DNA of 64,000 nucleotides from an uncultured Agathobacter sp. GTDB taxonomy: Bacteria; Bacillota; Clostridia; Lachnospirales; Lachnospiraceae. The notes under the pieces are model-generated. The model saw only the letters and a program-made list of their open reading frames with translations, ran no database searches and was not told where the DNA came from. Shown one piece after another: positions 2,311 through 63,799 of the stretch. The DNA is taken from NCBI GenBank assembly GCA_945910395.1, contig CAMDYX010000002.1, forward strand, positions 1-64,000, read 5' to 3'. The translations under genes were made by a program, and so were the position numbers. Numbering within the stretch: position 1 is the stretch's first letter; each line of letters starts with the position of its first letter.

Positions 2311-2582
2311 AATTGTATCATTTCGCCGGTTGATTTTCTTCCAGTACCTAAAATCTATGAAAAAAGCGGCATTTTAAGCGTTTTTTATGGTCGATTGTAT
2401 GTTTTCGCTGGATCACTTTTAGCCTGTACCTAAGAAATTGCAAATATTAGGTATACCGCGAAGTCCACTCCTCAAAATAATACAATTCCCAGGAAAAATC
2501 CGCAATTTGTAGCTGTTTTTCAAGGATTTTAGGTATACGACAGTTCTAGCACCTCAAATCTTGCCAAATTCCATAATTCTGA
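2311..2582. repeat. 272-bp dyad-symmetric repeat (family 2), copy 1
   Basis: Aligns without gaps to 50929-51200 with 12 mismatches by eye. Confidence 0.92.
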
Positions 2583-2627
2583 TCCAGGTATGTCTCAAAT
2601 CAACTTAAGTCTCACTTTTCCAAATAT

Positions 2628-7410: not shown

Positions 7411-8103
7411 TTATTCTCCCCAATAAATATATGTTACAAAATCCTCCGCCCTGTCTAACCGCTTGCTGTTTGATATAAAAACAAGATAACAGTCCTTTGG
7501 CGAAAGCTGATATTCCTTTACCAGATAGCTGTCCGTAATCCGAATCGCCGCAGGATACTCCTCCATGGTCTCATCATGCTGCGCGCACTCAATATAATCC
7601 GACAGCTCCTCCATCAGTTCTTCGGAAAGACAGGTCGTAAGATCCGCATAGGTATCCCCCGGCTCTAAATTTTCCAACGCCTCTTTGGACACAATCATAT
7701 AGTCCAGCTCCTGGGCTGCCATAAGGGACATCAGCTTTACGCGGTTTGCATACATGTACTGGTCCAGATTTTCCTCATCCACACTGATATTAATGGCAGT
7801 ATTTAAGTAGACCTTTCGGTACTTACCTGTTCCAAGATGATTAAGGTACCCTTCTCCCAGATAATTTTCTCCCTCCGTTGAGATGTAAGTATTTACCAAC
7901 GCACCCTCAAACAAATTCTCGGTTTTTTTACTTTTGATAATACTTGATGTAATGCTTACAATTGCTACAATAGCCAAAATAATCGCAATGACCCATTTTA
8001 AATAATAGGTCTTAAAATAAGACCATCGCTTTTTTGCATCCATCTTTGCCCATTTTTCTTTTTCGATCTTTACGCCTTCCTTAAATCCGATTCCATCCGG
8101 CAT
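7411..8103 (-). CDS. hypothetical single-pass membrane protein
   Basis: TM segment YLKWVIAIILAIVAIVSITSSII followed by an extracytoplasmic-looking domain; embedded in GH35/GH2 operon. Confidence 0.65.
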   Translation of the reverse strand: MPDGIGFKEGVKIEKEKWAKMDAKKRWSYFKTYYLKWVIAIILAIVAIVSITSSIIKSKKTENLFEGALVNTYISTEGENYLGEGYLNHLGTGKYRKVYLNTAINISVDEENLDQYMYANRVKLMSLMAAQELDYMIVSKEALENLEPGDTYADLTTCLSEELMEELSDYIECAQHDETMEEYPAAIRITDSYLVKEYQLSPKDCYLVFISNSKRLDRAEDFVTYIYWGE

Positions 8104-8144
8104 ACCGCAACTTCCTTTCTCTTATGAGCCTCCTACTACAGTTC

Positions 8145-10733
8145 TTACTTCGTGGCAAGATAGCTCTTTAGGCTCTTCTTAAGCTGTCCCGTCACAACAT
8201 CAGACCCACTTAAGTCGATGCCGCAGAAAACAATGATTGCCTCTCCTATTTTCCTTTCAAACAGAAGTGCATTCCTTGTATTGTCCACATAGTTTGGAAC
8301 AAGCTCCATAATCGGAGTGATATTCGTCTGCTTCGTCAAATCAAGTGCTACTGATTTTTCTAAAAGCTCCTTCCACTGGTAGTCCGGATACTTTCCGGTA
8401 GGAAACTCCCCGAAAACCGGATGCGTTTCATCAATGATCGCTCCGCAGGGCTTTTTCGACGGAAAATGTACCGGAGACCAAAATACCGGGATGAAGCTTC
8501 CCTCTATGGTATTCCCCATAAGGCGGATATCGGCAATCGCCTTTCCTCCATTTTCAATAACCTGATCTAACTCCTCTTTTGTCCGTATCACAGATATGGT
8601 TTCCTCTTCGTTTTCCTTCGGATATACGAAGATTCTCCAGCTGTTTACAAACTCCTCCACCGCTACCGTAACCAAAAGCTGTGCTGCTTTTGTGATACCC
8701 TGTAACGGAATTTTAATTTCAGATGCCCTCGTATTTTCTTCATAGAAGATTTCTTTTGTCCCATCATTCTTTACCTGGTACAGTTTTACCCGAAACAGCG
8801 GTTTTTCTATCTCTTCCTGTCCAAAATTGTAAAGAGAAAGCTTTGCACAAATCTCTTCCTCGTTGCTATAGATTCGCTTCGCATTCCAAAGCGGAACCTG
8901 CGGCCCGCAAAAGCATCTCCACTCCTTGGGTGTAACAACCCCCTTACTTCTTGCAAAAACATCCAGCACACCTATGGTTGCGGTGCTTTGTCCGGTGTAA
9001 TCCGTAAGGGACAGAAGCTCAAATCCTCCCATTCCCTTTGTCCGAAGGACCGCTTCGATATCTTCCTTGTAGAGCTTTACTGCCAGATCCCCGGAAGCCT
9101 TTATATAGTCTTCCTTTCTGTCGTAAACGCCTTTTGCCTTCATTTCCTTTCGAATGACATCGAAGTTCACCGGTAACATATTCCCGGTATAATCCTCGAT
9201 GATATCCACATCCGGGTAGACGCAGTACTGTCCTACTTCAAAGGTAACAATCGGCGCCGGAACATCTGATACCGCTTTATCATAACATAGCCCGGTGTCT
9301 TTTGCTACCTCATCCTGCAAATCCTGGATACGTGCCATGTTGTGATACGCGCGAAAAGCGCTGAAATAATCCTCATATGGTGACATGGGATGATCAAAGT
9401 TTGAGGTCATGGTGTACAGATGGCGGTCATCATAGCTTTTCGCAGCCCGAAGAATGTCCTCTAAGGTCTCAAAGTCTCCGATATTCTCATTTCCGTTGGA
9501 AAACAAAAAGAAGCTTGGATGATTTCCGTAGGATTTTAGGATGGTGTACATCTGCCGCATATAATAGTCACGATGCACCGGGTCATCCCCGAATTCGATT
9601 CCGCAGACATCCCGGTTTAACCACAGTGGCATTTCGATGGAATAGTACATTCCCACTTCGTCCGCTGCCGCAAATGCTGCCTCGGGTGGGCACCATGCAT
9701 GAAAACGGATATGATTGATTCCGTACTCCTTGATGGCAAGCAGGCGCTTTTTCCAGAACTCCTCATCTGTTGGCGGATATCCCGTAATCGGAAACTGCGC
9801 ACAGTCTATGGTTCCCCGAAGGGATAATCCATGTCCGTTCAGGCGAAACTGCTTCTCTTCTACCGAAAGATAACGCATTCCAAAGGAAAACATTTTTTCA
9901 TCCGTTACGTTTTTATCCTGATCGGCTAAGGTTATCTGCAGTCTGTATAAGTCCGGATGAAACTCATCCCACAAGCGGATATTTTTTACCGGATAGAAAA
10001 GGTAATCCGTCTGCTTCGAGGTCCAGGTTGTAATTTTTACCGTAAGCTCTTCCTTTGCCTTTCCATCCGGGTCAATCAGGCAAAGCGTAACATAAGCCTC
10101 TTCCTCCTCCAAGGGAACGTGCTGATTCGTTGCGGTAACAAGGCGAACCCTTATGCCGTCCTCCTTCGGGAAAATTTCTGCCCGTTCAATATGCAACAGC
10201 TCCTGTGCAACAAGCTTTAACTCTCCGATTACGCCGTTCCAGTACCCCTGGGTATCCACCGAATATCCGCTTGCCATCTCATACATACTGACAAGATTTC
10301 GATTATCGATCCGAAGTGTAAGGGTATGTGTCCCTTTAGAAAGCTTTCCGGTCAGATCATAGCTATGAGGGGCGGACAGATCAATGATTTCCCGTCCGAT
10401 CTGTACCCCGTCAATCCAAAGCATGGAGGAGATATTCACCCGCTCCAAGGACAGCCGGATGCTTTTCCCCTCAAAGGAATCCGGTATGTCAATTTCTCTC
10501 TGCAGCCAAAGCGGTGCGATGTACTCATACCGTTCGATGGGGGCACGGACCGCTTCCTTGCAGTAGCTGTCATAATATTCTTTTTTTACCCCGATTTTGT
10601 TGTCACAGGTGGAACCCGGAAGCACAAAGGTGCTCTCCGAAAATACCTGCTTATAGTATTCCTGCGGGATTCCCACATCCTGCTCATCTGTTTTATAGCG
10701 CCAGTTCCCGGCTAATGATAATATTTGTTCCAT
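8145..10733 (-). CDS. GH2 family glycoside hydrolase
   Basis: sugar-binding N-domain (LWLQREIDIPDSFEGKSIRLSLERV), acid/base region LFSNGNENIGD, nucleophile-like TFEVGQY. Confidence 0.85.
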   Translation of the reverse strand: MEQILSLAGNWRYKTDEQDVGIPQEYYKQVFSESTFVLPGSTCDNKIGVKKEYYDSYCKEAVRAPIERYEYIAPLWLQREIDIPDSFEGKSIRLSLERVNISSMLWIDGVQIGREIIDLSAPHSYDLTGKLSKGTHTLTLRIDNRNLVSMYEMASGYSVDTQGYWNGVIGELKLVAQELLHIERAEIFPKEDGIRVRLVTATNQHVPLEEEEAYVTLCLIDPDGKAKEELTVKITTWTSKQTDYLFYPVKNIRLWDEFHPDLYRLQITLADQDKNVTDEKMFSFGMRYLSVEEKQFRLNGHGLSLRGTIDCAQFPITGYPPTDEEFWKKRLLAIKEYGINHIRFHAWCPPEAAFAAADEVGMYYSIEMPLWLNRDVCGIEFGDDPVHRDYYMRQMYTILKSYGNHPSFFLFSNGNENIGDFETLEDILRAAKSYDDRHLYTMTSNFDHPMSPYEDYFSAFRAYHNMARIQDLQDEVAKDTGLCYDKAVSDVPAPIVTFEVGQYCVYPDVDIIEDYTGNMLPVNFDVIRKEMKAKGVYDRKEDYIKASGDLAVKLYKEDIEAVLRTKGMGGFELLSLTDYTGQSTATIGVLDVFARSKGVVTPKEWRCFCGPQVPLWNAKRIYSNEEEICAKLSLYNFGQEEIEKPLFRVKLYQVKNDGTKEIFYEENTRASEIKIPLQGITKAAQLLVTVAVEEFVNSWRIFVYPKENEEETISVIRTKEELDQVIENGGKAIADIRLMGNTIEGSFIPVFWSPVHFPSKKPCGAIIDETHPVFGEFPTGKYPDYQWKELLEKSVALDLTKQTNITPIMELVPNYVDNTRNALLFERKIGEAIIVFCGIDLSGSDVVTGQLKKSLKSYLATK

Positions 10734-34528: not shown

Positions 34529-35272
34529 ATGGGTTGCGATTTAGGTGAGATTATTTGTCAATACAGACAGAACAAAAAAATGACGCAGGAAGAGTTTGCC
34601 TCAAGATTGGGTGTAACACCACAAGCCGTCAGCAAGTGGGAACGGGGAAATGGTCTGCCGGATGTATCGCTGATTGAGGGGATCTGCAATGTGCTGGGTG
34701 TTGATGCGGATACCTTATTCGGAATTACAGAAAAGGTCGTGGAGAATGGAAATTCCATCGATGACACGGAAATCAAATCGAATCTGATTTCTGATCCAAT
34801 CATGGTAGAATTTTCCGAAAGCCTGATTCCGCTCATTTGTGATGGTCTCAAAACCCCTGCTGTGCAGGAAAGCCGCAAACGTCTTGCACGAGAAAACGGT
34901 ATGCTATTACCTATGATTCGATTCAGAGATAACTGTGCCTTAGCCAAGGATCAGTATCGGGTACTGGTATACGACAAGGAGATATTGACTGGTTCTACAA
35001 AAACCAATAGTGAAGCCTTTTATCAGGAGCTGATTGCCAAAATTGAAGGTTATTGTAAGGAGCATTACTCCAAGCTTTTGAATAAACACACCGTAAAAAT
35101 ACTGATTGATAATCTAAAGAATCAGTATCCCGGAGTGGCAGACGGCGTAATTCCGGAGCAGATTCCTTACATAAAAGTGGAGCAAAGGCTGAAAGAAAAA
35201 ATCAGAGCCGGTGAGTCGATCAAGGATTTGATACATATTGTTGAAGAGCTGGAAGCAGAAAATACAATTTGA
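34529..35272 (+). CDS. XRE family transcriptional regulator
   Basis: N-terminal HTH MTQEEFASRLGVTPQAVSKWERGNGLPDVSLIEGICNVLGVDADTLFG. Confidence 0.92.
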   Translation: MGCDLGEIICQYRQNKKMTQEEFASRLGVTPQAVSKWERGNGLPDVSLIEGICNVLGVDADTLFGITEKVVENGNSIDDTEIKSNLISDPIMVEFSESLIPLICDGLKTPAVQESRKRLARENGMLLPMIRFRDNCALAKDQYRVLVYDKEILTGSTKTNSEAFYQELIAKIEGYCKEHYSKLLNKHTVKILIDNLKNQYPGVADGVIPEQIPYIKVEQRLKEKIRAGESIKDLIHIVEELEAENTI

Positions 35273-35321
35273 CAAAAATGAAAAAACAAGTTTTTCGTCT
35301 AAATCGATTATTCTATATTTG

Positions 35322-35630
35322 TTATACGTAATTTCCGGCTTGGTTTAGTCTTTGAAAAAGTGTCGTTTACAGATAAACACTTTGTTTTCTCTCTGCTTAT
35401 CTGTAAACTCCGACCCTTATACGTCGCTGGAGAAAGCTTGATTACATATAAGCGCACTGATTTCTTGTCTCTTATATGTCATTTCGAGTTGAAAATGGGC
35501 TTTTAGAAGGAAAAGCTTACATATAACTTCAAAAAAATCTGATAGATTATATGTAATTACAGAAAAAGCACAATTACAAAAGGCCTATGTCTACGGATAA
35601 ATCCATCTATTTCTTTTCGCTTATATGTAA
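35322..35630. repeat. 75-bp-period paired inverted-repeat array, copy b
   Basis: Arms at 35322, 35367/35397, 35442/35472, 35517/35547, 35591/35621; left flank GTTATACGTAATTTCCGGCTTGGTT shared with copy a. Confidence 0.9.
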
Positions 35631-35721
35631 ACTTCTGTTTCTTCGTCTTTATTTGTCATTCGAAACCATTTAAGATGTGAAACCTGACATAAGCCGAGCA
35701 AAACACACTTCATCTACGCAA

Positions 35722-36427: not shown

Positions 36428-36494
36428 ATTTATGTTTCCTTTTCCTATATGATGAGCCAGACAAATCAGCCTGTGATCTGCCTGGCCTGTTTAG

Positions 36495-36540
36495 ATTCAA
36501 ATAAGCAAATTCATTCAGGAACACAATTCCGAAATGGAAT
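36495..36540. repeat. half-copy of family 1, copy G
   Basis: attcaaataagcaaattcattcaggaacacaattccgaaatggaa directly abutting kduD stop. Confidence 0.8.
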
Positions 36541-37410
36541 TTAATCATTTACCTTGATATCCGGTGTTTCTTCAATCTCATCTGCAAATTTTGATGCATC
36601 CAGATTGTTCGGGTCCTGTCCGATATATGCGGAAATACCACCATCAATATAAACTACCTGGCCATTGATGAAGTCAGATGCCGGAGAAGCAAGGAATACT
36701 GCAAGTCCCATAAGGTCCTCGGTACGTCCCCATCTCTGTGCCGGTGTCTTTGAACGGATGAAACGATCGAATGGTGCCATAGATCCGTCCGGTCCCTTCG
36801 CACGAAGCGGAGCAGTCTGTGGAGTTGCAATATATCCAGGTCCGATAGCGTTACACTGAATATTGTACTGACCATACTCAGAACAGATATTTCTGGTGAG
36901 CATCTTAAGTCCTCCCTTTGCAGCTGCATAAGCGGAAACAGTTTCACGACCAAACTCTGACATCATAGAGCAGGCATTGATAATCTTTCCGCTCTTCTTT
37001 TCGATCATGTCAGGCAAAACAGCCTTTGCACAGATGAATGGACCGGTAAGGTCTACATTGATTACCTGATTCCACTCATTGAGAGTCATCTCTGTCATAG
37101 GGATTCTCTTGATGATACCTGCATTGTTTACAAGAATATCAATGGAGCCAACCTTTTCCTTTACATCAGCTACAAATTTCTGAACCTGCTCTTCATTTGT
37201 AACATCACATACAGCACCATAAACCTCGATGCCTCTCTTCTTGTACTCCTCAAGGCCTCTGTCCACGAGCTCCTGCTTGATGTCGTTGAAAACGATCTTT
37301 GCTCCTGCCTCATGATATGCTACGGCATATGCAAGTCCAAGACCATAGGAAGCTCCTGTGATCCATGCTACTTTTCCTTTTAATGAAAACTTGTCAAGAA
37401 TATTACTCAT
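36541..37410 (-). CDS. kduD: 2-deoxy-D-gluconate 3-dehydrogenase / gluconate 5-dehydrogenase (SDR)
   Basis: WITGASYGLGLAYAVAYHEAGAKIVFND, NNAGIIKRIPMTEM, YAAAKGGLKMLTRNICSEYG; next to kduI. Confidence 0.85.
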   Translation of the reverse strand: MSNILDKFSLKGKVAWITGASYGLGLAYAVAYHEAGAKIVFNDIKQELVDRGLEEYKKRGIEVYGAVCDVTNEEQVQKFVADVKEKVGSIDILVNNAGIIKRIPMTEMTLNEWNQVINVDLTGPFICAKAVLPDMIEKKSGKIINACSMMSEFGRETVSAYAAAKGGLKMLTRNICSEYGQYNIQCNAIGPGYIATPQTAPLRAKGPDGSMAPFDRFIRSKTPAQRWGRTEDLMGLAVFLASPASDFINGQVVYIDGGISAYIGQDPNNLDASKFADEIEETPDIKVND

Positions 37411-50796: not shown

Positions 50797-50920
50797 TAAA
50801 AATGAATTTTGCTATTCGAATCCAAACTCTTAAAAAGCGTCGGCACTTAATGAGCAATTCATTGCGAATTTAGTACCGCTACGCTTTTTACGAAGCGGGA
50901 GCGGATTCTGCTTCATGCTT
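50797..50920. repeat. long-hairpin intergenic repeat (family 1), copy E; right arm displaced to 51195-51223 by family 2
   Basis: aaatgaattttgctattcgaatcc...aaaaagcgtcggcacttaatgagcaattcattgcgaatttagtaccgctacgctttttac. Confidence 0.88.
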
Positions 50921-50928
50921 GATTGGTA

Positions 50929-51200
50929 AATTGTATTATTTCGCCGGTTGATTTTCTTCCAGTACCTAAAATCTATGAAAAAAGCGGCATTTTAAGCGCT
51001 TTTTATGGTCGATTGTATGTTTTCGCCGGATCAATTTTAGCCTGTACCTAAGAAATTGCAAATATTAGGTATACTGCGAAGTCCACTCCTCAAAATAATA
51101 CAATTCGCATGAAAAATCCGCAATTTGAAGCTGTTTTTCAAGGATTTTAGGTATACGCCAGTTCCGGCACCTCAAATCTTGCCAAATTCCACAATTCTGA
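50929..51200. repeat. 272-bp dyad-symmetric repeat (family 2), copy 2
   Basis: Ungapped match to 2311-2582. Confidence 0.92.
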
Positions 51201-51348
51201 TTCGAATATGTAAATTCATTTTAAAATATAAATCCAAAATGGTGGATATTTTATTCTTTTTTCATTCGATTGAATGGTATAACTATGCTATAATGTCGTT
51301 AAGCATTATATATGCATAGATTTCATTATAGAAAGGATGATTTTTCCT

Positions 51349-60774: not shown

Positions 60775-61242
60775 TTACTTCAACACATCTATCCATTCAT
60801 TATTTTCTTGATAGAAAAAGTATTCACTTAAATTTTCATTTAAGAATACTTCAAGCATTTTATCCATTCCTTCTGCTAGATTTGTTTTTTTCATCTCGTC
60901 CAATTCAATCCAATGGACATCTCCCTCATCCGACGAAGATAATTCGCCCTCATATTTGTTGGTTTTGTAGAATAGTACCATGTATCTTGAACCGTCTTCA
61001 TTTGACCAATCTTTTATTCCACACAATCTAGGAGAAGAAATTTTTAATCCAGTTTCCTCTAGCACTTCACGAATTACCGCATCCGTAAAAGACTCTCCTT
61101 TTTCAACATGACCTCCAGGGAATGTGATTCCACAGTAATCATCATCATTTTTTTCTTGTACTAAAACCTTGGTGCCATTATATATCATACACATATTTGT
61201 TATAGTTACGATTTCAGTTCTTGCCATTGTCTGCCTCCGCAA
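60775..61242 (-). CDS. NUDIX hydrolase (MutT-like)
   Basis: Nudix box GGHVEKGESFTDAVIREVLEETGL. Confidence 0.93.
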   Translation of the reverse strand: MRRQTMARTEIVTITNMCMIYNGTKVLVQEKNDDDYCGITFPGGHVEKGESFTDAVIREVLEETGLKISSPRLCGIKDWSNEDGSRYMVLFYKTNKYEGELSSSDEGDVHWIELDEMKKTNLAEGMDKMLEVFLNENLSEYFFYQENNEWIDVLK

Positions 61243-61254
61243 ATTTTGATTTGT

Positions 61255-61788
61255 CTAATTCATTAAATCATAATTATGTAAAATAATCTTTTCTGCTTTT
61301 TCTATGTCTTCAAGAGTAAGTCCTATCGTTTGGTCAGGCATCACCTGATGTTTTTCAATATCGGCATTGTGCAAATCAAGGTCATCAAGAACTACCCACC
61401 CTATAACTTCATTGTGCTGTTTTAGCCACAAAAGAATTTCATCCGCTTTTACTAAACTGAATTTTTTAGTTCTTTTTATCTCTTCTGTAGTCAAGTCTGG
61501 GGTTACTCCATCAATAGATAATCCTTCTTTATTAAGCATTTCAACCAGTCTTTTGGACTCAGGACGAAGTGGCTTCAAGTCTTGGTCAAACCAAATTCTC
61601 CAACCAGAATGGAGTACCACTTTGGCATCCGTTCTTTTTATCAAAGGTGCTAATATCTTAATTCTTTCTTCGTCGATTAATGTTCCATCACTTATTTCTT
61701 TTTGATGACTGTCATTCCAGAAATTAGAATTTAGAACCCCATCTATATCTAAAAACAAAACCCTTTTCAATATATATTCCCTCATCAA
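61255..61788 (-). CDS. HAD-like domain protein
   Basis: RVLFLDIDGVLNSNFWND, KVVLHSGWR, GWVVLDDLDL. Confidence 0.8.
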   Translation of the reverse strand: MMREYILKRVLFLDIDGVLNSNFWNDSHQKEISDGTLIDEERIKILAPLIKRTDAKVVLHSGWRIWFDQDLKPLRPESKRLVEMLNKEGLSIDGVTPDLTTEEIKRTKKFSLVKADEILLWLKQHNEVIGWVVLDDLDLHNADIEKHQVMPDQTIGLTLEDIEKAEKIILHNYDLMN

Positions 61789-61851
61789 ATGCTTGATTTC
61801 CTTTGTCTCCCTTGCTCAAAGAACTCGGTTAATTGGGATTCGATGAACTAA

Positions 61852-62418
61852 CTATTGTAATAAATGCCCATCTGTTATTTGTATTAGGTTTTCTACAATC
61901 GCTTTGTAATATTTTGAAAACCTACTATCTGTCTCTGTTATACTATTTAAATCTATCTCAAATCTAATAAGTCTATCAACAATGTGATTCGAAATAATTT
62001 TTCTGTATTCAGCAGAATACTCATAACGATGGATAATGAGTTTTTCATTTTGTTCTTCATTCAACAATCTATTATACAAATCATCGATTACAAGCTCGTC
62101 AATAACCATTACTTCTTTTTCACATACAAGTTCAGCACTCCATGATGTTCTATTTCTTTGAAAACCGTCATCGTTCAAAAGATATACTGAACAATTCTTT
62201 CCTTGATACACTGATTTCAGAGCATCTGGATAGCATTCGTATATAATAGGAGTTCCTTTTTCGTCAGTATAGAGAAGAAAATCAAAATCATCTTTTTTTA
62301 CTCCAAATAGGAGAGCTGTCACCATATTCTCTATAGCATATACATACTCTTTTCCATGTGTTGATACACGAGGTTGTAGAGTTTTTAGTCCAGCGATTGG
62401 CGATACATGATATAACAT
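61852..62418 (-). CDS. hypothetical protein
   Basis: 188-aa ORF with intact start; MLYHVSPIAGLKTLQPRVSTHGKEYVYAIENMVTALLFG. Confidence 0.6.
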   Translation of the reverse strand: MLYHVSPIAGLKTLQPRVSTHGKEYVYAIENMVTALLFGVKKDDFDFLLYTDEKGTPIIYECYPDALKSVYQGKNCSVYLLNDDGFQRNRTSWSAELVCEKEVMVIDELVIDDLYNRLLNEEQNEKLIIHRYEYSAEYRKIISNHIVDRLIRFEIDLNSITETDSRFSKYYKAIVENLIQITDGHLLQ

Positions 62419-62487
62419 TATTTCCCTCCGGCAAATTCTGCCAGCCCTTTCTCAGGTTCTATATTGTAATTTTATCCTTACACCGCC

Positions 62488-62955
62488 TTACTTCCTTTTC
62501 TCGTATTCATGCGGTGAGTACACTTCAATTTGATTTATATAATCCTCATCAAACACAAGTGTTTCACGATACATTTCTCCACCAATGGAAGGATTATAGT
62601 TCCAGATAACAAGCGGCTTTATGATATACAATTCATTTCCTACTTTTTCAAACATTTCCACATACTGTGGAAATCTGCTATCATAATTTGCACGTCCAAT
62701 TTTATACGCTTCTGTACCATACTCGACGATGCTTGCTCTACCATGAATCTGCAATGTTCCAACCGTAATCGCTACATTACAATTGTAAGCGATATTTTTA
62801 CATTTTAATGTATCGGAATAACTTCCAAAATAGAGATTGCAATCCTCGTCATATGAAAAACATACGATGGAATTATCAGGAAGCCTTTCCCCTGCTGTTC
62901 CTAAGCTCATTAGCTTTTGTGGTGACAACAATTTACAAACATCCTCTTTTGTCAT
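62488..62955 (-). CDS. pyridoxamine 5'-phosphate oxidase family protein
   Basis: LMSLGTAGERLPDNSIVCFSYDEDCNLYFGSYSDTLKCKNIAYNCNVAITVGTLQIHGRASIV. Confidence 0.85.
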   Translation of the reverse strand: MTKEDVCKLLSPQKLMSLGTAGERLPDNSIVCFSYDEDCNLYFGSYSDTLKCKNIAYNCNVAITVGTLQIHGRASIVEYGTEAYKIGRANYDSRFPQYVEMFEKVGNELYIIKPLVIWNYNPSIGGEMYRETLVFDEDYINQIEVYSPHEYEKRK

Positions 62956-63022
62956 GTCTCCTCCGTTTGCAAATAAGAATACCGATAGATTTCATTTTCT
63001 TAAGTGTTCCATATCATAAAAA

Positions 63023-63409
63023 CTATATAGAAATCCACCAACACACTCCATATTTGTCAATTATAGTTGCGTTATATCTGCTCCATGGAAGTTCATGAAT
63101 CGGTTCGATAACCACACCTCCGTCACTAAGTACTTCAAAGGCATTATTGACAGCCTCTTCACTCCCCATCTCAAACACATTAAAGGTCATTGTTTCCCAT
63201 TTATTCTTATGTACCACCTCAATATCACAAGGATTTGAGGCTTCAGCTAAGGCCAGGAAGCCTTCCCCATTTACAGACAATTCACAATGTTCATAGGCAG
63301 TATCTGCTTCATTTTTGAATTCTCTCGTAATTTCTGCTCCAAATGCTTTACAATAGGTTTTCGCTGCTTCATAACTGTTCTTCACATATACCTGAGTATA
63401 ATTCTTCAT
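63023..63409 (-). CDS. VOC family (PhnB/glyoxalase-like) protein
   Basis: MKNYTQVYVKNSYEAAKTYCKAFGAEI...VFEMGSEEAVNNAFEVLSDGGVVIEPIHELPWSRYNATIIDKYGVCWWI; start at 63409. Confidence 0.87.
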   Translation of the reverse strand: MKNYTQVYVKNSYEAAKTYCKAFGAEITREFKNEADTAYEHCELSVNGEGFLALAEASNPCDIEVVHKNKWETMTFNVFEMGSEEAVNNAFEVLSDGGVVIEPIHELPWSRYNATIIDKYGVCWWISI

Positions 63410-63565
63410 AACTTCTCTCCGGCAAAAAAATATACCTTTTTTCAATTCTTTTAAATCCTGTTCTGTCGTCAAATATTTATCATGTTTCATCTCTGTAACA
63501 TCTAATTTCCAAACAGGACCAAGCGTCGGGGTATTACCTCCTTGTGAATGTGCTTTTTCCTGAAA

Positions 63566-63799
63566 TTACATATAAACTATTAGAAAGCGTAAGCCTCTTG
63601 ATAAGTGAAGTTTACATATAAAACTCTTATTATCTCAGAACCTATATGTAATCATAAGCTAAAAAAATTTCTAAAAAGACAGATGCTACATATAATTTAA
63701 TGAAATTCTGATAGTATATATGTAATTGCCCCAAAAACACATTCGAAAAAGGCCGATAATTACAGATAAATCCGTCTATTCCTCTTCGTGTATATGTAA
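63566..63799. repeat. 75-bp-period paired inverted-repeat array, copy c (degenerate left end)
   Basis: Arms at 63566, 63612/63642, 63686/63716, 63760/63790; tail GTTTGCACACGAAAGAGTTTGATAAATT at 63858. Confidence 0.85.

Follow-up and report, generated by a model that had tools for sequence, protein, structure and literature searches.

An inverted-arm repeat array in an Agathobacter genome and the PD-(D/E)XK-type nuclease family associated with such arrays

Described repeat systems and array b

REPINs were presented in 2021 as the only stably maintained intragenomic sequence population in prokaryotes known to the authors of that paper (PMC8049555). With their RAYT enzyme they share several traits with the arrays reported here, namely short non-autonomous inverted-repeat populations in intergenic DNA, a dedicated enzyme gene and tandem copies (PMC8049555). 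As in REPIN-RAYT, dispersed copies have motifs in common with an enzyme-linked copy; for the TTATATGTAA family described below, the enzyme-linked copies lie in other genomes. The differences are substantial: the RAYT is an HUH tyrosine transposase, whereas the enzyme here is a PD-(D/E)XK-type nuclease; a REPIN is a pair of REP hairpins, whereas our arrays carry up to ten phased arms at 30/45 bp, without hairpin constraint; and several families with different arms are present per genome here. The arrays resemble REPIN-RAYT in their apparent working but, differing in both enzyme and element, do not belong to it. In the genome under study (89% complete), a search for PF01797 (RAYT, Y1_Tnp) gave no match, while positive controls matched.

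Regular arrays adjoining a nuclease-type gene also recall TIGR-Tas and CRISPR. Here, however, the arms are conserved and the interspaces drift, without a unique-spacer pattern, and searches with the protein found no known effector family. With interspaces homologous between copies, the unique acquired spacers and Cas or Tas protein that define CRISPR/TIGR were not found. PDC-S68, a candidate defence protein in PADLOC, has its C-terminal nuclease domain in common with the array-linked nuclease, but its models are ~1200 aa long, while in our case the domain is array-linked and fused to a different, short N-terminal region. BOX elements of pneumococcus are modular, with repeated internal units, and we know of no enzyme linked to them and no helical-phase rule. 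BOX and RUP are like the arrays in being dispersed intergenic repeats (PMC3049150). A search of open PMC text returned no description of a nuclease-array system, and the nuclease family with its private phased arrays is apparently undescribed.

The DNA analysed, called the window throughout, is a 64,000-nucleotide stretch from an uncultured Agathobacter sp. (contig CAMDYX010000002.1). Array b is built from ~10-bp TTACATATAA/TTATATGTAA arms that alternate in orientation at a spacing of 45/30 bp. Its parts, its neighbour and its relatives in the window are:

34529..35272, + strand: XRE regulator with HTH and an FlhA-resembling piece; chance neighbour of b, outside the element
35293..35630, + strand: array b, five inverted-arm dyads, period 75 bp, ten arms; first left arm degenerate, identified by eye
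35293: arm L1, TTTCGTCTAA, degenerate left arm, identified by eye
35322..35331, + strand: arm R1, TTATACGTAA
35367..35376, - strand: arm L2, TTACAGATAA
35397..35406, + strand: arm R2, TTATCTGTAA
35442..35451, - strand: arm L3, TTACATATAA
35472..35481, + strand: arm R3, TTATATGTCA
35517..35526, - strand: arm L4, TTACATATAA
35547..35556, + strand: arm R4, TTATATGTAA
35591..35600, - strand: arm L5, CTACGGATAA
35621..35630, + strand: arm R5, TTATATGTAA
60411..60719, + strand: array a, same family as b
63566..63799, + strand: array c, same family as b, partly decayed

A preliminary description of this DNA had listed the arms from 35322 to 35621, and we found every one of them at its coordinates, with the claimed 45/30 alternation held to within 1 bp. 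Matches to the arm pattern (at most one mismatch) number 27 in the window against 5.4 expected, a count that 0 of 100 shuffles reached, and array b is thus confirmed as a real repeat array. The same description had placed an XRE regulator directly upstream. For b this is correct (the regulator's stop is at 35272), but it does not extend to the element, as array b itself sits between convergent genes and the neighbours of other TTATATGTAA arrays, judged from sequence, are prfA-, araA-, polC-, flgM-, ppiB- and transporter-like genes. Since these copies adjoin unrelated genes, no neighbour gene type is favoured, the XRE gene is incidental and its candidacy as the partner of the array is ruled out. 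The regulator does contain a segment matching FlhA (PF00771 positions 321-406), an odd fusion for a regulator.

Constraint on the arms and distribution of the family

When arrays a and b are aligned, the arms differ at 5 of 90 positions (5.6%), the 20-nt loops at 18 of 80 (22.5%) and the 35-nt spacers at 52 of 139 (37%), with two single-base gap columns in all that cancel each other. The clear arm deficit, the strong divergence of the spacers and the shared unit order (the units align collinearly, without rearrangement) all agree with what had been proposed for the two arrays. In an alignment of four homologous arrays, arm divergence is 0.185 times that of the remainder, and 0 of 311 shifted masks do as well. 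We conclude that the arms are constrained and that their spacing is retained while the spacers drift. The earlier suggestion of selection on geometry, as opposed to recent duplication, is thus supported by the substitution test, and also by recurrence of the geometry in other genera.

Changes within the arms are one-sided: of the 86 non-consensus positions in 60 dyads of the window family, 75 carry a change on one side only and 4 are compensated. Because of this, the arms look as if they are read as DNA by a protein and not paired as RNA. We found neither a covariance-model match nor compensatory stems, the features of a structured RNA, and the Rfam search gave no match for the array; the uncompensated changes and the missing Rfam match led us to reject the RNA hairpin reading. 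Together with a B-DNA period, described below, the uncompensated changes favour a double-stranded protein-binding array.

The genome contains 21 dyads, against 0 for the reversed control pattern. By DNA search and arm mapping, there are at least 16 arrays of TTATATGTAA type on 14 contigs, typically with four or five dyads; in other copies L1 is often TTACGTCTAA or TTACCTCTAA, and L5 is often CTACAGATAA. One copy (L040 near 9044-9105, contig C57) is split by a palindromic insert of ~62 bp (AGTTACGTCCGTATAATGGTGTAA...). Between arrays a and c, at 60775-63490, lies an accessory cluster of five small minus-strand genes (NUDIX, HAD, unassigned, PNPOx-like and glyoxalase-like). The idea that a and c bracket these accessory genes, in the manner of attC-like cassettes, is disfavoured by the housekeeping genes that lie on either side of other copies. 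Another dispersed repeat, MITE-like and with a long hairpin (GAATTTTGCTATTTGAATCAGAACG...GTTCTGATTCAAAT), is found in the window at 36480-36545 and 50880-50920, at L131:940-1070 and 2345-2400, and in the flanks of arrays on C8, C9, C63, C82 and C95; it is often near arrays and flanks one nuclease gene on both sides.

Outside this genome the family is scattered. The TTATATGTAA dyad was found in 0 of 146 related genomes, of which 62 are congeners, and an array similar to the TTATATGTAA type in 0 of the 62 congeners. The gene pair bracketing the contig-6 array lies close together without an array in several congeners; in G013 the genes are ~140 bp apart, compared with ~470 bp here, a difference of about the array length at the one array locus compared. 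Neither a target-site duplication nor an exact empty site was readable at this locus, the array junction being unreadable because the congener flanks and intergenic DNA are too diverged. Transposition events were not observed. A dyad scan of 85,488 species genomes returned 38 stretches, mostly single dyads, and most of these single-dyad matches look like chance. In-phase arrays were nevertheless found in Treponemataceae MAG Horse_feces314, Ca. Treponema equifaecale, Butyrivibrio SIG348, a Roseburia MAG, Blautia parvula and one uncultured bacterium. The same arms occur at 75-bp phase in Treponema, Butyrivibrio, Roseburia and Blautia, with interspaces mostly unrelated to those here. Departures from 30/45 spacing elsewhere are few and amount to about one helical turn (30 to 41; 45 to 34 or 55). 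In Blautia parvula, L059:5784-6340 is a tandem run of 74-bp units that are nearly identical and have the same left arm, and no nuclease gene was detected in the genome.

The nuclease family and its arrays

Homologous genes lie beside the same arms in Butyrivibrio (L060) and Treponema (L104); they encode proteins of 261 and 273 aa that are 33% identical. These proteins belong to a family of ~265 aa in which an N-terminal region of ~145 residues precedes a PD-(D/E)XK nuclease domain; neither Pfam nor NCBIfam gave a match for the family. In 22 of 22 members scanned, the C-terminal ~115 residues match the nuclease domain found at the C-terminus of PDC-S68 (best 1.2e-31), and RSK-x-E, PDF (P-D-F) and EHxG motifs are invariant, or nearly so, in the alignment. 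Active site and alpha-beta core place the family in the PD-(D/E)XK superfamily, with the active-site K replaced by H. A single-sequence fold reached pLDDT 40, and a nine-sequence fold about 85 for the C-domain. The best Foldseek structural matches of the C-domain model are Bax1, DrdV and the R2 retrotransposon, all weak and none below E 0.001; we take these endonucleases to be of PD-(D/E)XK type. The N-terminal half is poorly modelled (helix, three strands, long helix) and matched no known domain; that it binds DNA is our guess.

The nuclease is present in 6 of 7 array-bearing genomes tested, this one included, the seventh being that of Blautia parvula, where the array is present and the nuclease was not detectable. 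Within the genus it occurs in 30 of 63 genomes, in 1-6 copies, several of them with stops. The present genome has five loci, one broken by stops, and none of its TTATATGTAA copies stands beside a nuclease gene. Of the four intact nucleases, that on C51 is the closest to those with TTATATGTAA arms elsewhere (33% and 31% identity, versus 22-29%), and on this sequence similarity G000:C51:2478-3269 is the best candidate for the cognate nuclease of b; it has no recognisable array of its own. Cargo of phage or plasmids was rejected as an account of the family, as viral and plasmid matches cover the C-terminal part only; the one match over the full length is to a 4.2-kb faecal contig that is labelled phage and carries no annotation.

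Searching beside the nuclease genes without an assumed arm sequence, we found alternating inverted-arm arrays, each with different arms, at 47 of 89 nuclease loci with a fixed detector, as compared with 5 of 100 control tiles taken from elsewhere in the same genomes; the 5 positive tiles look array-only, since no nuclease gene is nearby. With the cut-off relaxed, 3 of 92 shuffled sequences were positive. In a second set of congeners, mostly genomes unused before, 13 of 31 nuclease loci had arrays versus 0 of 87 controls (Fisher p 3e-9). At roughly half of the nuclease loci the fixed detector found no array. In the 48 cases with an unambiguous side, the array precedes the gene 41 times, mostly within 200 bp. 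In the present genome the nuclease-side arrays are TTGGGTGTA (62/83 bp) at C48, TCGGGGTAT (52) at C31 and GTCAGTAAA (53) at the broken C43 gene, and other genomes hold many more arm types. Two orphan arrays (GTAGAGTGG, 53 bp) lie 4 kb apart in genome G396 (L228:3348-3571 and 7790-8119), with no nuclease gene detected between them.

The periods of the arrays cluster at ~42, 53, 63, 74, 84 and 94 bp, corresponding to 4 to 9 helical turns. The best-fitting period is 10.50 bp, with a vector length R=0.86 for n=43 arrays. The surveyed genomes are related, and plain Rayleigh p-values therefore overstate independence; with one array per nuclease cluster (<40% protein identity) R is 0.815 (n=18, Monte Carlo p 5e-4), and the second set alone gives R=0.79. 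Nearest nuclease relatives agree in turn class in 30 of 44 cases against a shuffled mean of 13.6 (p 2e-4, a nearest-neighbour value subject to the same overstatement), while arm sequences differ even between nucleases 60-70% identical. Geometry thus changes slowly and arm sequence fast.

At least two nuclease-linked array types have array-only copies in this genome. About nine array-only loci of the TTGGGTGTA type show its 62/83 alternation. A further 35 or so sequences resemble the stretch that precedes the nuclease gene G000:C1:297365-298093 (arms GTACCTAAAA/TTTTAGGTAT). Two members of this second family are in the window:

2311..2583, + strand: array-only copy of the second family
50929..51201, + strand: second array-only copy of the same family

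Over 273 bp these two share 95.6% identity; their ends are constant and their flanks unrelated. MITEs are defined by terminal inverted repeats plus a target-site duplication; in the second family the ends are constant, with arm-like termini, and no target duplication was seen, the empty sites being too diverged. Dispersed array-only copies, nucleases in 1-6 copies and several broken genes make up the picture expected of a self-propagating, decaying element family.

Readings of the nuclease-array association

From the association we infer that the nuclease binds the arms. We lean towards the view that array b is a non-autonomous copy, and that the nuclease would bind the arms and drive the spread of the array as the RAYT does for REPINs. 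In such a scheme, nuclease molecules would occupy the arms cooperatively, all from one face of the DNA, and would assemble on the array. A cut or nick in the array or close to it would then promote its copying to new intergenic sites, and the outcome would be intragenomic array populations like those of RAYT and REPINs. With arm specificity changing fast, the array families within one genome would not cross-react. The broader claim, that this is a second class of self-propagating repeats, unrelated to REPIN-RAYT, in which the site sequence co-diversifies with a PD-(D/E)XK enzyme, represented by several families per genome in Lachnospiraceae and by related arrays in Treponema, seems to us evenly poised between right and wrong.

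The chief rival to mobilisation is that the array is the operator of its own nuclease gene and that dispersed arrays are extra operators or titrating decoys, the protein being a domesticated regulator or a toxin-like nuclease restrained by the array. The predominantly upstream position (the 41 of 48 above), in most cases near the start codon, would be expected of an operator, and helical phasing fits cooperative binding. We still think this account unlikely, as array-only copies occupy many types of intergenic position, b lying between convergent genes, as array copies differ between close species, and as the catalytic residues of the nuclease are conserved. An account in which an unrelated transposase moves the arrays as ordinary MITEs, with the nuclease genes as passengers, would explain why some copies have constant ends and high identity and would suit the separate hairpin repeat often found nearby. 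It is improbable, however, given that the arm type varies between nuclease loci, that nuclease lineage is associated with array geometry, that this genome has no Y1 (HUH) transposase gene and that target duplication was not seen.

Phased multi-site arrays at many chromosomal loci might also be chromosome-organising sites, either centromere-like or bound by a nucleoid protein. To this we give very little credence: 62 genus members lack the TTATATGTAA family, arm sequence varies by locus and one genome holds several array families. Finally, the arms are inverted repeats in every family despite their differing sequences, as would be expected of hairpin stems in RNA or single-stranded DNA (structured RNA, attC-like or REP-like), but arm substitutions are almost never compensated, the full period comes in steps of the B-DNA turn and Rfam has no match, all of which makes hairpin stems highly improbable.

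In summary, the arrays and their nucleases have the look of a repeat system of a new kind, selfish or self-propagating, in gut bacteria. If the mobilisation reading is true, there would be a second kind of intragenomic population, with another enzyme and a measurable helical-turn rule, that would allow ideas on the origin and persistence of such populations to be tested independently. A further gain would be a nuclease family whose target specificity changes fast and can be read; since the likely target motif is written beside each nuclease gene, protein-DNA recognition may be learnable from pairs of sequences.
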